Below, in pieces: positions 50,850 through 57,661 of a stretch of 57,813 nt of DNA. The notes below the pieces were generated by a model. The model ran no database searches, was not told the DNA's origin, and worked only from the letters and a program-made list of their open reading frames with translations. Source of the DNA: Pelagibacteraceae bacterium (GTDB lineage: Bacteria; Pseudomonadota; Alphaproteobacteria; Pelagibacterales; Pelagibacteraceae); NCBI GenBank assembly GCA_008638015.1, contig VTPD01000005.1:1-57813 (forward strand). The letters run 5' to 3'. Position numbers and translations under genes: made by a program. Each line of letters opens with the position of its first letter. Positions within the stretch are counted from its first letter, which is position 1.

Positions 50850-52028
50850 CTAAGACTTATTCAAAGAATCTAAGATATCTTTTTTCAAGTCTTCTAGATT
50901 TTCCAGCCCAATAGATAGCCTTACAAGATTTGGTGTAATACCAAGACTAATTCTATCTTTTTCTCCTAAAACCTTGTGGGTTGTAGTGGTTGGATGAGTA
51001 ACTAATGATTTAGTGTCACCAAGGTTATTAGAAATATCGAAGATTTTTAAGTTTTTAATAAATCTAAAAGCTTCTTTTTTTGATCCTTTAATTCTAAAAG
51101 ATATCATGGTTCCACCAGCTGACTGTTGTTTTTTAGCTAAAGCGTATTGTGAAAAAGATTTAAGACCAGGATAAAATACTTTTTCAACTTTTTTATGTTT
51201 TTCTAAAAACTCGGCAATATTTTGTGCTGTATGAGATTGAGAATGAACTCTAATTTTTATTGTTTCCATACTTTTTAATAGTACCCATGCATTAAATGGA
51301 CTAATACAAGGACCAGTATGTCTTAAAAAAGGTTTTAAAATATCTTCTTTAAATTTTTTAGTACAACAAATTGCTCCTCCCATTGCTCTACCTTGACCAT
51401 CAATATGCTTTGTTCCGGAATAGATAATAATATCTGCACCAAATTTAATAGGTTGCTGCAGAACGGGTGAAGCAAAAATATTATCTACAATAGTTGTTAT
51501 TTTATTTTTTTTAGCAATTAAGCAAACTTGTTTTATGTCTATAATTTCTAAACAAGGATTTGAAGGTGACTCAAAAAAGAAAATTTTGGTATTTTTTTTT
51601 ACAGATTTTTTCCATTCATTTAAATTTGTTCCATTAACAAATGTTACTTCAATACCAAATTTTGGAAGAATATCTTTTAAAATATATCGGCAAGATCCAA
51701 AAAGGGCTGAAGCTGAAACGACATGATCTCCAGCTTGTAATTGACACATCATCGATCCAAAAACAGCAGCCATACCGCTTGCTGTAGCAAAGCAGCTTTC
51801 TGAACCATCAAGCAGAGCAAGTCTTTGCTCAAACATTTCTATAGTTGGATTGGCATACCGTGTGTACTGAAAGCCTTTTTGTTTTCCTAAAAAAATTGCC
51901 TCGGCTTGTTCTGGCGAGTCATAAACAAATCCAGAATTTAAAAAAATAGCTTCTGATGTTTCTTTAAAGTTAGATCTAGTTAGGCCACCCCTAACTAGAT
52001 TTGTTTCTAACTTAAATTTTTTTTTCAA
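50850..52028 (-). CDS. metZ: O-succinylhomoserine sulfhydrylase-type Cys/Met metabolism PLP enzyme
   Basis: YTRYANPTIEMFEQRLALLDGSE, SGTKHIDGQGRAMGGAI; directly abuts metE. Confidence 0.9.
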   Translation of the reverse strand: MKKKFKLETNLVRGGLTRSNFKETSEAIFLNSGFVYDSPEQAEAIFLGKQKGFQYTRYANPTIEMFEQRLALLDGSESCFATASGMAAVFGSMMCQLQAGDHVVSASALFGSCRYILKDILPKFGIEVTFVNGTNLNEWKKSVKKNTKIFFFESPSNPCLEIIDIKQVCLIAKKNKITTIVDNIFASPVLQQPIKFGADIIIYSGTKHIDGQGRAMGGAICCTKKFKEDILKPFLRHTGPCISPFNAWVLLKSMETIKIRVHSQSHTAQNIAEFLEKHKKVEKVFYPGLKSFSQYALAKKQQSAGGTMISFRIKGSKKEAFRFIKNLKIFDISNNLGDTKSLVTHPTTTTHKVLGEKDRISLGITPNLVRLSIGLENLEDLKKDILDSLNKS

Positions 52029-54287
52029 TTAGCTTACCCTTAATTCTTTTGCGGCATTAACCATTTTAGTTAATGCATCAATCGTTTCTGGCCACCCTCT
52101 AGTTTTTAGTCCACAATCTGGATTAACCCATATTCTTGATGGATCAATTAGCTTAGATGCTTTTTCTATAAGGATCTTCATTTCATCTTGAGATGGAACG
52201 CGTGGTGAGTGAATGTCATAAACGCCAGGTCCAACTTCATTTGGATATTTAAACTTTTCAAAAGTTGTCAGAAGTTCCATTCTAGATCTAGAGGTCTCAA
52301 TAGAAATAACATCTGCATCTAATGCTGCAATTGAATCGATAATGTCCTCAAACTCCGCGTAACACATATGTGTATGAATTTGCGTTTCATCTTTAACGAC
52401 TGCAGCTGATATTTTAAAGCAATCAACAGACCAAGAAAGGTAATCTTTCCAATCTTTTTTCTTTAATGGAAGCCCTTCTCTTAGTGCTGGTTCGTCAATT
52501 TGGATCATTCGAATTCCATTTTTTTCAAGATCCTCAACTTCATCCCTAATTGCAAAACCAATCTCTTGGGCTGTAAATTTTCTTGGTTGATCATCTCGAA
52601 CAAATGACCATTGTAAAATGGTAATAGGTCCAGTTAACATTCCTTTCACAATTTGCTTTGTTTGTTCCTGAGCAAATTTTGACCATCTAACAGTCATTGG
52701 TTTGGGTCTGGATACATTACCAAAAATAATGGGAGGTTTTACGCAACGTGATCCATAGCTTTGAACAAATCCACTTGAAGTAAAAGTGAATCCTTTCAGT
52801 TGTTCACCAAAATATTCTACCATGTCATTACGTTCAAACTCTCCATGAACAATAACATCTATTCCGATTGATTCCTGTTTTCTAATAGTATCAATTGTTT
52901 TTTCCTCTAGGAACTTTTCATAACTTGTTTCATCAAGTTCCCCACGTTTAAATTTAGCTCTTGCTTGCCTGACATCAGTTGTCTGCGGAAATGAGCCAAT
53001 AGTTGTTGTGGGATATTTTGGAAGAGAAAAAATATTTTTTTGAATTTTTGCTCTATCTACATAACTAGATTTTCTCTCTGTAATAGATTTATTAATTGTT
53101 TTAATTCTATCTTTAACAGCATTATCATGAATTAGTTTTGAAGTTTCTCTATCATGAATATCTGCAGCATTGTTGTCCAAAGCTTCCTGATGAGATCCTT
53201 CATTAATAAAACCCTTAATAACATTAAGCTCCAGCAATTTTTGTTTTGCAAAAGAAAGCCATCTTTTGATTTCAACAGGAACTTTTTGTTCTAATTCTAG
53301 ATCATATGGGGAATGAAGCAGGGGACAAGAAGAAGCAATAATTACATCATTAGAAATATTATCTTTTATGAAATTAATTTTTTCTTGTAAATTTGTTTTC
53401 CAAACATTTCTTCCATCTACCAATCCTAAGGAAAGTTTTTTATTTGAGTTTTTGACATATTCCTTATTTTTGCTGCCTCTGACCAAATCTAAATGCACAA
53501 CATCTACATTACTTTCAAAAACTTGATTTTTTACATCTTCATTTAGATCTTCAAAGTAAGTCGCTAATAAGATTTTGCAATTTCCAGCAGCACCTTTAAT
53601 TTGATTAAGCGTATCTTTAATCTTTGATACAACATTAGAGTCTAAGTCTTTTACTAGAATTGGTTCATCAATTTGTATCCACTCAGCTCCCAATTGAGAA
53701 AATTTTTCAACAATTTGCTTATAAATTGGTAAAATTTTATCTAATAAATTGATGGTATTAAATCCATCAATGCCTTTAGCTAAAAGAAGAAATGTTAGAG
53801 GACCAAGAATAATAGGCTTAGTATCAAAACCAGCTTGCTTAGCTTCTTCATACTCTTCAAATGGTTTATTAGAACTTAATTTAAAAGTTTGTTCTGCAGA
53901 AAGTTCAGGAACTAGATAATGATAGTTTGTATCAAACCATTTTGTCATTTCTAATGCAGGAACATCCAAGTCTGCAGTTTGTGAACCCCTTGCCATTGCA
54001 AAGTAAGTTGTAAGATTTACTTCCTGTCCATCCCACTTATATCTTTTAGGAACAGCTCCTAATAAACAAATTGCATCCAGTACTTGGTCATAAAATGAAA
54101 AATCATTTGAAGAAATTAAATCCACACCAGCACTTTTTTGCGTTTGCCAATTCTGTTTGCGTAAATTTTTAGCAACATTGTGTAAATCTTGCTCTTGAAT
54201 TTCACCTTTCCAAAATTGCTCCAGGGCTTTTTTTAATTCTCTTTTTGGACCTATTCTAGGATAACCAATTGATGCGACTTGTATCAT
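52029..54287 (-). CDS. metE: Cobalamin-independent methionine synthase
   Basis: 752 aa; SIGYPRIGPKRELKKALE, TTIGSFPQT, VHGEFERNDMVEYFGE, WVNPDCGLKTRGW. Confidence 0.98.
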   Translation of the reverse strand: MIQVASIGYPRIGPKRELKKALEQFWKGEIQEQDLHNVAKNLRKQNWQTQKSAGVDLISSNDFSFYDQVLDAICLLGAVPKRYKWDGQEVNLTTYFAMARGSQTADLDVPALEMTKWFDTNYHYLVPELSAEQTFKLSSNKPFEEYEEAKQAGFDTKPIILGPLTFLLLAKGIDGFNTINLLDKILPIYKQIVEKFSQLGAEWIQIDEPILVKDLDSNVVSKIKDTLNQIKGAAGNCKILLATYFEDLNEDVKNQVFESNVDVVHLDLVRGSKNKEYVKNSNKKLSLGLVDGRNVWKTNLQEKINFIKDNISNDVIIASSCPLLHSPYDLELEQKVPVEIKRWLSFAKQKLLELNVIKGFINEGSHQEALDNNAADIHDRETSKLIHDNAVKDRIKTINKSITERKSSYVDRAKIQKNIFSLPKYPTTTIGSFPQTTDVRQARAKFKRGELDETSYEKFLEEKTIDTIRKQESIGIDVIVHGEFERNDMVEYFGEQLKGFTFTSSGFVQSYGSRCVKPPIIFGNVSRPKPMTVRWSKFAQEQTKQIVKGMLTGPITILQWSFVRDDQPRKFTAQEIGFAIRDEVEDLEKNGIRMIQIDEPALREGLPLKKKDWKDYLSWSVDCFKISAAVVKDETQIHTHMCYAEFEDIIDSIAALDADVISIETSRSRMELLTTFEKFKYPNEVGPGVYDIHSPRVPSQDEMKILIEKASKLIDPSRIWVNPDCGLKTRGWPETIDALTKMVNAAKELRVS

Positions 54288-55177
54288 GCTCTTACTTCTC
54301 CTTTATTTTGTTCATTATTTAAATTGCTCTGCAAAGACAAAAGCCTTGAACACACAGCAAAAGTTAATTCATATTTATTTAATGTATAAAAATGAAATTC
54401 ATTCACTTCTTCTTTTTTTAGTTTTTTAACTAAATCACTAGCTAAACTTGCTCCTACAAACTGCTGTACTTCTGGTGTTTGATCTAAATTTGTAAATTCA
54501 CTTGCTACCCATTCAGGAATAGAAGCTCCACACATAGCACTAAAATTTTTTATTTTTTTAAAATTAGAAATTGGCATAATTCCTGGTATTAAAGGAACTT
54601 TTATTCCTGCTTTCATCACTTCATCCCGGTATCGGAGAAATACATCTTTATCAAAAAAATATTGTGTAATGATTTTATCAGCTCCTGAGTCTATTTTTCT
54701 TTTTAAGTTATCAATATCATCTTGTTTATTTTTTGAGTCAGGATGAATTTCTGGGTAACCTCCAACCGCAATATCAAAATTTGCTAATTTTTTTAATCCT
54801 AAACACATATCTGCAGCATTGATGTAGCCGTTTGGATGGGGTACGTATTTTTTATTTGCTTCCCTAACATCACCTCGCAAAGCTACAATTTTGTTTATAC
54901 CTTTTTCAAACCAACCAAGTGCCAAATCATTTATCTCTTCTTTTGACATATCTACACAAGTTAGATGACCTGCTACCGGTACAAGAGAGTCTTTGCCTAT
55001 TTTTTTGACAAAAGAATCGCTTTTTAATCGCTCTCCACCACCAGCACCAAAAGTTACTGAAAAAAATTCAGGATTAAAATTTTCTAATTTTTTTAAACTA
55101 TCCCAAGCCTGCTCTTCTGCAGCAGAGTTTTTTGCAGGAAAAAATTCAAAGCTTAATTTCAAATCAACTTTTTTCAT
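54284..55177 (-). CDS. metF: Methylenetetrahydrofolate reductase
   Basis: LSFEFFPAKNSAAEEQAW, SVTFGAGGG, ALRGD, FDKDVFLRYRDEVMKAG; start trimmed from TTG at 55222 to ATG MKKVDLKLSFEFFP. Confidence 0.93.
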   Translation of the reverse strand: MKKVDLKLSFEFFPAKNSAAEEQAWDSLKKLENFNPEFFSVTFGAGGGERLKSDSFVKKIGKDSLVPVAGHLTCVDMSKEEINDLALGWFEKGINKIVALRGDVREANKKYVPHPNGYINAADMCLGLKKLANFDIAVGGYPEIHPDSKNKQDDIDNLKRKIDSGADKIITQYFFDKDVFLRYRDEVMKAGIKVPLIPGIMPISNFKKIKNFSAMCGASIPEWVASEFTNLDQTPEVQQFVGASLASDLVKKLKKEEVNEFHFYTLNKYELTFAVCSRLLSLQSNLNNEQNKGEVRA

Positions 55178-55220
55178 AATTTTTATGAACAAATTTTCGG
55201 CAGTTTTAAATGGAGTTTCC

Positions 55221-55250
55221 AAAAAAAAACCACCGGCTAGAGCGGTGGTT
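55221..55250 (-). terminator. Intrinsic terminator between SAM aptamer and metF
   Basis: Minus strand AACCACCG-ctctagc-CGGTGGTT followed by T-tract: 8-bp stem, nine T's. Confidence 0.9.
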
Positions 55251-55253
55251 ACA

Positions 55254-55308
55254 ATCGCTTTAGCTGGTTTTATAAAGCGCCCGCAATTTGAACTAAATCA
55301 GCGCTGCT
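55254..55308 (-). promoter_or_regulatory. SAM-II (SAM-alpha) like riboswitch aptamer
   Basis: Minus strand CAGCGCTGATTTAGTTCAAATTGCGGGCGCTTTATAAAACCAGCTAAAGCG: P1 AGCGC/GCGCT, conserved TGATTTA, ATTGC, ATAAA, AGCTAAA; upstream of metF-metE-metZ. Confidence 0.85.
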
Positions 55309-55343
55309 AACTTTAAATAATAATTGAATTAAAAAGTCAATAT

Positions 55344-55517
55344 TTAATGTTTATGATTGTGCGATCCACCAAGACCACAAGGCATAGAAATATTACTAGA
55401 ATTATCATCTCCACTTTTGTGAAACAAAGGATTGTATGCAACCCCTCTATTGTCGTGATCCATAAGCGCTAGCACTATGATTAAAATTAAAAACAAACAG
55501 TATAGAATATTTTTCAT
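55344..55517 (-). CDS. 57-aa exported/anchored small protein with Cys/His-rich tail (not in ORF track)
   Basis: MKNILYCLFLILIIVLALMDHDNRGVAYNPLFHKSGDDNSSNISMPCGLGGSHNHKH*; TAATG overlap with upstream transporter stop. Confidence 0.75.
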   Translation of the reverse strand: MKNILYCLFLILIIVLALMDHDNRGVAYNPLFHKSGDDNSSNISMPCGLGGSHNHKH

Positions 55518-56680
55518 TAGTAGAAATATTTCCTAGCTTTAACGCCATAAATAGAGCCAATAAATGCAAATAAAAACCAAACCCAGCCGTGCACACTTCC
55601 AGAAGCTATGCCGCTAAATAAGGCTCCTACGTTACATCCAAAAGCCAATCTTGCGCCGTAACCCATTAAAAAACCTCCGATTACTGCAGCAAAAAATAAT
55701 TTTGAATTTACATTTGATTTATTGGAAAATTTTCCAGCCAAATTTACAGCTATCAAAGCTCCAAGAATAATTCCCAAATTAGATACAGTTGTTGGATCTG
55801 CAAGAACGCTATTTTCTAAAGCAGTGCTAGGGTAGGACAATTGCCAAAAATCCCACTGAGCAACATTGATACCAATGATATTTGCAATTTTGGCTCCCCA
55901 CAATCCAAAAGCAAACGTTACAGACCAAGGATGACCTGCAGCATGTAGCATAAAAAAATTTAATATTGCCAAAAGAATAGCACCTAAAAATAAAGGCCAA
56001 GGTCCTTTGATTAAATTAAAATTAGATGCTTTGAAAATATCTAAATGATTTATTTGTGTGTTACGCTTTGACTCCAAATAAGAGAAAAAAATATATAACA
56101 ACACTAAGAAACTAAGTTGCATCCCAATATTTTCATATGAATTAAATTTATCCAGCAACGAAATTGCACCAAGGGATGGTAAGGATGACCAAAAAGAGAA
56201 ATGATAGGTACCGACTAAAGAGCCAATAATAAAAAAAATTAGAGTAATAAACATTTTTATATTTCCACTAGCTGCGGTAAATAAAGTTCCTGATCCACAA
56301 CCTCCACCTAATTGCATTGCAAATCCAAAAATGAAAGATCCAACAATTACTGAAAGACTGACAGGAGCGATAGCGCCAACCATATTTCCATCATAAATTA
56401 AACTTTTGTTACCAATGGAAAGGGAAAAAAGTACAATGGCAAATGCGAGCATTACTATTTGAGCTCTTAAAGAATTGCTTTTATTATTTTCAATAAAATC
56501 TCTCCATCCACCTGTGAAACCAAATGAAGCATGGTATAACGTTATACCAAGAGCTAAACCAATACTAAAAACTAATACGTGTCTTAAACCTAATTCTTGA
56601 TATAAAAAATTTAATAAAAAAATAGATAAAAAAATTCCAACTAAAAGATAAGGTATTTCACTTTTCCTGAAATTTTCCAT
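55517..56680 (-). CDS. YeeE/YedE-family (TsuA-like) sulfur compound transporter
   Basis: 387 aa polytopic; GFAMQLGGGCGSGTLFTAASGN and MGYGARLAFGCNVGALFSGIASGSVHGW cysteine motifs. Confidence 0.88.
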   Translation of the reverse strand: MENFRKSEIPYLLVGIFLSIFLLNFLYQELGLRHVLVFSIGLALGITLYHASFGFTGGWRDFIENNKSNSLRAQIVMLAFAIVLFSLSIGNKSLIYDGNMVGAIAPVSLSVIVGSFIFGFAMQLGGGCGSGTLFTAASGNIKMFITLIFFIIGSLVGTYHFSFWSSLPSLGAISLLDKFNSYENIGMQLSFLVLLYIFFSYLESKRNTQINHLDIFKASNFNLIKGPWPLFLGAILLAILNFFMLHAAGHPWSVTFAFGLWGAKIANIIGINVAQWDFWQLSYPSTALENSVLADPTTVSNLGIILGALIAVNLAGKFSNKSNVNSKLFFAAVIGGFLMGYGARLAFGCNVGALFSGIASGSVHGWVWFLFAFIGSIYGVKARKYFY

Positions 56681-56715
56681 AAGGGAAAGTATAATATTTT
56701 TAAATTAAAAGCTAA

Positions 56716-56743
56716 CACCTAGGTTAATATATTAACCTAGGTG
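56716..56743. repeat. 28-bp perfect palindrome between rhodanese and transporter genes
   Basis: CACCTAGGTTAATATATTAACCTAGGTG. Confidence 0.9.
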
Positions 56744-56755
56744 AACAAAAGATTA

Positions 56756-57661
56756 TTAGCCTTTGATAACTTCGTTTTTAGGATTGATGGTCCAATGCGC
56801 CATAGAGCCATCATACATTTTTACGTTTGGAACTTTAGCAATTTCGCTTAACCCAAACCAAACAGTGGCAGCCCAATGTCCTGTGTTACAAAAAGTTACA
56901 AATCCTTTTTTCGCTTTCAGATCTGCTGCTTTGACTAATTGTTTAATTTCATCAGCTGATTTAATCGATGAGTTAGTATCAATTAAGGCTGATTCTTGAA
57001 GGTTTTTTGCGGTAGGTATCGTTCCAGCTCTTTCAATAGTAGCAAATTTCTTTTCCCCTTTAAAAAATTCTACGGGTCTTGCATCAATTAGAGTGTAACC
57101 ATTTCGATCTCTTCTTGCATCTCTAACCTCTTTGTAATCAGCTAAGTATTTTTTATCAAATTTAGCTACAAATTTGGATGGAGTAATTTTATTTTCACCA
57201 GCTTCTGTTTTTAAACCAGCTTTTTGCCAAGCATTAAATCCACCATTTAAAATAGAAACTTCTTGATGTCCTAAAGTTTTAAATGTCCAATAGATTCTAG
57301 CAGCACTACCAAAGTCTGTTGAGTTAGCACCACCATATACAATAACCACATGTTTAGAGTTGTCTATTCCTAAACCTCCAATTAATTGTTCTAAGTGCTT
57401 CGTTCCAGGATATTGTCCTACTACTCCTTTAATTTCAGCTCTCCATCCACCTTTTAAATAATCAGAATGAACCGATCCTGGAATATGAGCTAATTTAAAA
57501 GTTTCATATGATCCATTATCAATTTTATTTCGTATATCTAAAATAAATATTTTTTTATTATTTAAATTTTTATTAAGCCATGAAACATCAACCAGCGGTT
57601 CTGCTGAAAAAACTGATGTTGCAAAGAAAATAAAAAATATTGTACTTATTATTTTTTTCAT
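56756..57661 (-). CDS. Periplasmic tandem-rhodanese sulfurtransferase
   Basis: Signal peptide; two rhodanese domains (ILDIRNKI..., LIDARPVEFF...); putative active site FCNTGHWAATVWF. Confidence 0.9.
   Translation of the reverse strand: MKKIISTIFFIFFATSVFSAEPLVDVSWLNKNLNNKKIFILDIRNKIDNGSYETFKLAHIPGSVHSDYLKGGWRAEIKGVVGQYPGTKHLEQLIGGLGIDNSKHVVIVYGGANSTDFGSAARIYWTFKTLGHQEVSILNGGFNAWQKAGLKTEAGENKITPSKFVAKFDKKYLADYKEVRDARRDRNGYTLIDARPVEFFKGEKKFATIERAGTIPTAKNLQESALIDTNSSIKSADEIKQLVKAADLKAKKGFVTFCNTGHWAATVWFGLSEIAKVPNVKMYDGSMAHWTINPKNEVIKG

Follow-up and report, generated by a model that had tools for sequence, protein, structure and literature searches.

The window, a 57,813-nt stretch of contig VTPD01000005.1 from a Pelagibacteraceae genome, encodes on its minus strand the methionine genes metF, metE and metZ; metE overlaps metF by 4 nt and is directly followed by metZ (Table 1). 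Read directly from the sequence, positions 55305-55221 (-), just 5' of this operon, comprise a SAM-II aptamer and, after it, an intrinsic terminator with a run of nine T. The gene order metF-metE-metZ also occurs in three related genomes (G001, G002 and G041), and the same leader stands 5' of metF in HIMB114 and in the CC_bin40 MAG. An alternative metF start at TTG 55222 was rejected because its frame contains a stop in a relative (the L124 leader), and the ATG at 55177 is preferred. A small hairpin, TTCATAA-AAA-TTATGAA, spans this start codon (55161-55190; 6-7 bp, A-T only except for one pair); it is confined to close relatives and absent from the HIMB114-like leaders. On the upstream side (55344-57661) lies a Sulf_transp gene (YeeE/YedE-like, PF04143), preceded by a rhodanese gene. 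A 57-aa ORF, ending at 55344, sits upstream of the leader and has counterparts with 55-61% identity in G002 and G005.

The original prediction had placed a SAM-II-like aptamer on the minus strand, and the elements it named lie there to within a few bases, including the ATAAA between GCGCT and AGCTAAA (55265-55259). It had also described an 8-bp stem and nine-T tract ahead of a three-gene methionine operon, which agrees with the folding results and with the protein-family matches in Table 1. The GC-rich hairpin that precedes the T run has a predicted energy of -10.9 kcal/mol (z -3.3), as befits an intrinsic terminator, and nine T are found in nearly all of the relatives' leaders. The promoter-like elements in Table 1 were picked out by eye, and a consensus promoter scan of the window did not list the TTGACT/TTTAAA candidate. 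TTGACA or TTTACA occurs at the same place before P1 in many relatives, and a promoter here would start transcription just before P1.

Table 1. Coordinates of the leader elements and operon genes in the window
Feature	Position	Strand	Remarks
Promoter-like -35 TTGACT and weak -10 TTTAAA	55312..55340	-	55340-55335 and 55317-55312; 17-nt spacer
SAM-II (SAM_alpha) aptamer match	55239..55314	-	RF00521
P1 5' strand AGCGC	55301..55305	-	covariation with 55276-55280
L1 third strand TGATTTA	55294..55300	-	SAM-contact bases U10 (55297), U11 (55296); contact list from PMC11508383
ATTGCGG	55281..55287	-	contacts A20, U21, U22 and P2 5' strand
P1 3' strand GCGCT	55276..55280	-	covariation
P2 3' strand CCAGCTAAA	55259..55267	-	SAM-contact bases U46 (55262), A47 (55261), A49 (55259)
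Antiterminator 5' strand GCUAAAGCG (predicted)	55256..55264	-	overlaps the SAM-contact strand
Antiterminator 3' strand CGCUCUAGC (predicted)	55236..55244	-	within the terminator's 5' arm and loop; pairs with GCUAAAGCG apart from one A.C mismatch
Intrinsic terminator, 8-bp hairpin	55228..55250	-	AACCACCG (55250-55243) pairs with CGGTGGTT (55235-55228)
Nine-T tract	55221..55229	-	first two T also close the terminator stem
metF, methylenetetrahydrofolate reductase	54284..55177	-	PF02219; start ATG at 55177
metE, cobalamin-independent methionine synthase	52029..54287	-	PF08267 and PF01717
metZ, O-succinylhomoserine sulfhydrylase	50850..52028	-	TIGR01325

Assignment of the leader to the SAM-II class

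The original prediction had left the choice between SAM-II and SAM-V to a covariance search. When 801 nt of the region were compared with all 4227 Rfam families, RF00521 (SAM_alpha) matched at 27.8 bits (E 4e-4), and this match ranks first in a search of the entire 1.09-Mb genome (E 1.3e-4). The score lies below the RF00521 gathering score of 36, which is a curated cut-off and not a property of the family. RF00521 also fails to report the bhmT SAM-II of Ca. Pelagibacter ubique at E<=1 in 3 kb, and since that published, SAM-binding RNA goes unreported as well, we do not count the sub-threshold score against membership. Among 120 relatives, 94 match RF00521 at E<=0.05 and 34 exceed the cut-off, with a sister family reaching 45.6 bits.

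The window has every one of the eight SAM-contact bases listed for the P. ubique bhmT SAM-II (U10, U11, A20, U21, U22, U46, A47 and A49). Their numbering was checked on the P. ubique leader L156, where positions 10, 11, 20-22, 46, 47 and 49 and the U82-U90 run fall as published; this leader (genome G029) belongs to P. ubique HTCC1062, judging from SAM-II/SAM-V and metY SAM-V positions that match the coordinates of PMC2704228. The compensatory changes expected in relatives are found in 28 dereplicated aptamers, where four pairs change on both sides (three of the five in P1 and one in P2); the covariation score was reached by none of 500 shuffles, and slid controls stayed far below it. In the same 28 aptamers 97% of the P1 cells are paired. 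Four P2 pairs (U-A, U-A, G-C and C-G) are invariant and the fifth is G-C in 15 and A-U or G-U in 2, with no pair in the other 11; the window has all five. The placement of the element before methionine-synthesis genes in a member of the Pelagibacteraceae fits that of SAM-II in alphaproteobacteria.

SAM-V shares the geometry of its SAM-binding core with SAM-II (PMC6061858), but it has a P3 and sits within about 10 nt of the start codon, whereas some 80 nt separate the window aptamer from the metF ATG downstream. RF01826 (SAM-V) gave no match even at E<=10 in the 801 nt, which also disposes of a degenerate SAM-V between terminator and metF; neighbours with a tandem SAM-V score 50-84 bits with the same model, and the window's genome contains no convincing SAM-V. 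The evidence thus supports classifying the leader as SAM-II and not SAM-V, and the RNA almost certainly senses SAM and stops transcription early.

The window element is a further example of a known switch class, and it is the operon and the missing SAM-V that differ. SAM-II of alpha- and betaproteobacteria is most commonly associated with terminators (PMC2258182), and attenuation is described as its usual arrangement (PMC2258182, PMC6061858). One of the closest parallels is the tandem bhmT switch of P. ubique, whose SAM-II half has the same aptamer core, the ACCACCG...T9 terminator, similar spacing and the antiterminator complement of the window, and a KD for SAM of 1.2 uM as given in PMC5069961. 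There a SAM-V follows and the gene is bhmT, in contrast to the lone SAM-II before metF-metE-metZ in the window; the antiterminator of the window contains a single mismatch, and that of P. ubique comprises 12 bp and one bulge. The SAM-II of Sinorhizobium meliloti metZ likewise precedes a sulfhydrylase gene and has a predicted Rho-independent terminator; attenuation is backed there by levels of sRNA and mRNA, the terminated sRNA rising at high SAM (PMC9373788), albeit in another organism outside SAR11 and with another gene arrangement. The metX SAM-II from the Sargasso Sea metagenome (2QWY) has the same H-type pseudoknot core, but is described as translational with a short P2a (PMC6061858), whereas the window element is predicted to be transcriptional.

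A predicted antiterminator and the competing readings

The arm and loop of the terminator complement the 3' strand of the aptamer in three unrelated stems, with the combinations ACCACCG-CUUUAGC in bhmT, metY and metF leaders, GCCCAG-UUUAGCU in metX leaders and ACCGCC-...UUAGUUG/UAGCUG in the sister family. The antiterminator is nearly invariant in the 61-sequence leader alignment and hence shows little covariation of its own; the ACCACCG set being too conserved in this respect, the comparison was made across terminators. Most of 39 distinct terminators, detected by a simple stem rule, form at least six contiguous pairs with the aptamer strand when G-U is counted, those below six being the window-type loop (five, twice) and L089 (four), against 2 of 28 control terminators that reach six Watson-Crick pairs with the window strand, a comparison in which the pairing rules differ slightly and the control set is small.

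Prefix folding places the antiterminator helix in the minimum free energy structure of the transcript ending just after the terminator loop in 10 of 10 leaders. In P. ubique the helix has 12 bp, one bulge and -18.3 kcal/mol; in the window and its close relative L124 it includes one A.C mismatch (-10.0 versus -13.7 kcal/mol). The longest uninterrupted run in the window is 4-5 pairs, since its loop reads CUCUAGC, and the single mismatch leads to a weaker predicted ON state than in the relatives. The minimum free energy fold of the full window leader contains the terminator and an alternative hairpin, and the ON and the OFF fold at full length both come out at -22.4 kcal/mol, in an energy model that scores neither pseudoknot nor triplex.

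We consider it very probable that a SAM-II riboswitch with a transcription-attenuation platform controls metF-metE-metZ, and that its SAM-contact strand serves as the antiterminator. When SAM is scarce, P1 would form and GCUAAAGCG would be captured by CGCUCUAGC as the latter leaves the polymerase; the antiterminator, which engages the terminator's 5' arm and loop, would then allow read-through into the operon. When SAM is plentiful, the GCUAAAGCG strand with U46, A47 and A49 would be held by SAM in the pseudoknot P2 and the triple helix, leaving the terminator free to fold, and transcription would stop at about 55221. SAM-dependent shut-off by attenuation was also the core of the original prediction, and the covariance-model match, the contact bases, the covariation and the conserved layout of the leader together support it.

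The prediction went on to suggest, as a possibility, another antiterminator, in which GCGG of loop 1 pairs with the terminator CCGC against termination until SAM releases it. Four such pairs can indeed be drawn in the window and in 98% of the cells of the leader alignment, but GCGG forms the 5' side of the P2 pseudoknot and CCGC belongs to the terminator stem, so that each is conserved for other reasons. The pairing is broken in GCGA leaders (five sequences, metY, one genus) and in P. ubique bhmT (GCAG), GCGG faces unrelated terminators in metX leaders, and neither the predicted intermediate of the window (transcript end at 76 nt) nor its full-length fold contains it; we regard this part of the prediction as unsupported and very unlikely.

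Two further readings dispense with antitermination. Were the switch translational, as the crystallised metX RNA is, SAM would hide a ribosome-binding site, and other SAR11 copies of SAM-II do have this layout, for example L002, with GCTAAAGGAG a few nt before ATG. In the window the metF ATG lies about 80 nt downstream of GCUAAA with a full terminator in between, and no Shine-Dalgarno sequence overlaps the aptamer, which makes translational control highly improbable here. A constitutive terminator, uncoupled from the aptamer and ending upstream transcripts, could act on the small ORF that ends at 55344. The terminator, however, closely follows the aptamer in the leaders of relatives too, and the complement to the aptamer strand in the arm or loop of three unrelated stem types and the near-equal predicted ON and OFF energies also speak against this explanation, which is very unlikely. 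Attenuation through the SAM-contact strand is the preferred reading.

Distribution in SAR11 and the bhmT tandem

The same core and terminator precede metF, bhmT or metY in 51 named records, all of them Pelagibacteraceae or Pelagibacterales except HIMB114, labelled only 'Alpha proteobacterium' but listed as SAR11 in PMC5069961, and the host of the window is accordingly a SAR11 relative; no matches were found in viral contigs that would indicate carriage by phage. Those bhmT and metY copies that were checked have a SAM-V as well. At the locus that holds the window's operon, genome G005 has a SAM-II, terminator, SAM-V, short core-MetE-like gene (a name that comes from reading its sequence) and metZ in place of metF-metE-metZ. 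Both genomes share the order sulfur transporter, 57-aa ORF, leader, intervening genes, metZ and fumarase, and the difference between the window (50850-57661) and G005 (L154) is apparently a cassette swap behind one conserved riboswitch.

Several variants of the element were seen along the way. In the SAM-II halves of SAR11 bhmT and metY leaders (L100-L150), 40 of 61 leaders have G in place of U10 and 31 of 61 have C in place of A20; the A20 change occurs only together with that of U10, neither is present in any metF leader, and an altered affinity or ligand is possible. Eight metX leaders of one SAR11 genus (L044, L048, L053, L063, L066, L083, L087 and L093) have a SAM-II core and then a T run with no detectable hairpin at it, HTCC1062 (L066) included. 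The window's own genome has a second SAM-II-like element (L002 349-431, contig G000:C63) with P1 AGTCC/GGACT and GCTAAAGGAG directly before ATG, a translational layout; the 63-aa protein downstream has no Pfam or NCBIfam match. This element (also L158-L168) recurs almost unchanged in 11 of the 247 family genomes, and wherever it was inspected outside the window's genome it stands before different small proteins.

The antiterminator also bears on a published puzzle. On its own the SAM-II of the bhmT tandem binds SAM, but it does not do so when the linker is included, and oligonucleotides that pair with the linker restore the response, an observation that the authors could not explain and called puzzling (PMC11508383). 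The P. ubique linker is CGCUUUAG, and we propose that the full-length tandem loses SAM binding because the 12-bp helix sequesters U46, A47 and A49. Judged from sequence and energy, such sequestration would explain the linker-mediated loss. As a general rule for SAR11 SAM-II attenuators, namely that the SAM-contacting strand is the antiterminator strand of a 9-12 bp helix, that SAM is effective only before the arm is transcribed and that this accounts for the bhmT observation, we hold the idea to have about an even chance of being right. If true, SAM acts only in the short interval before the terminator arm is transcribed, and a refolded full-length tandem RNA would look insensitive to SAM.

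For SAR11 biology, the metF-metE-metZ operon of SAR11 relatives would join the SAM-II regulon, and related genomes have a stand-alone SAM-II attenuator or a SAM-II/SAM-V tandem at one and the same chromosomal position. Many SAR11 members, P. ubique bhmT among them, are missed at the Rfam SAM_alpha cut-off. The proposed helix, finally, would offer a simple structural reason why the tandem SAM-II does not respond in the full-length RNA.
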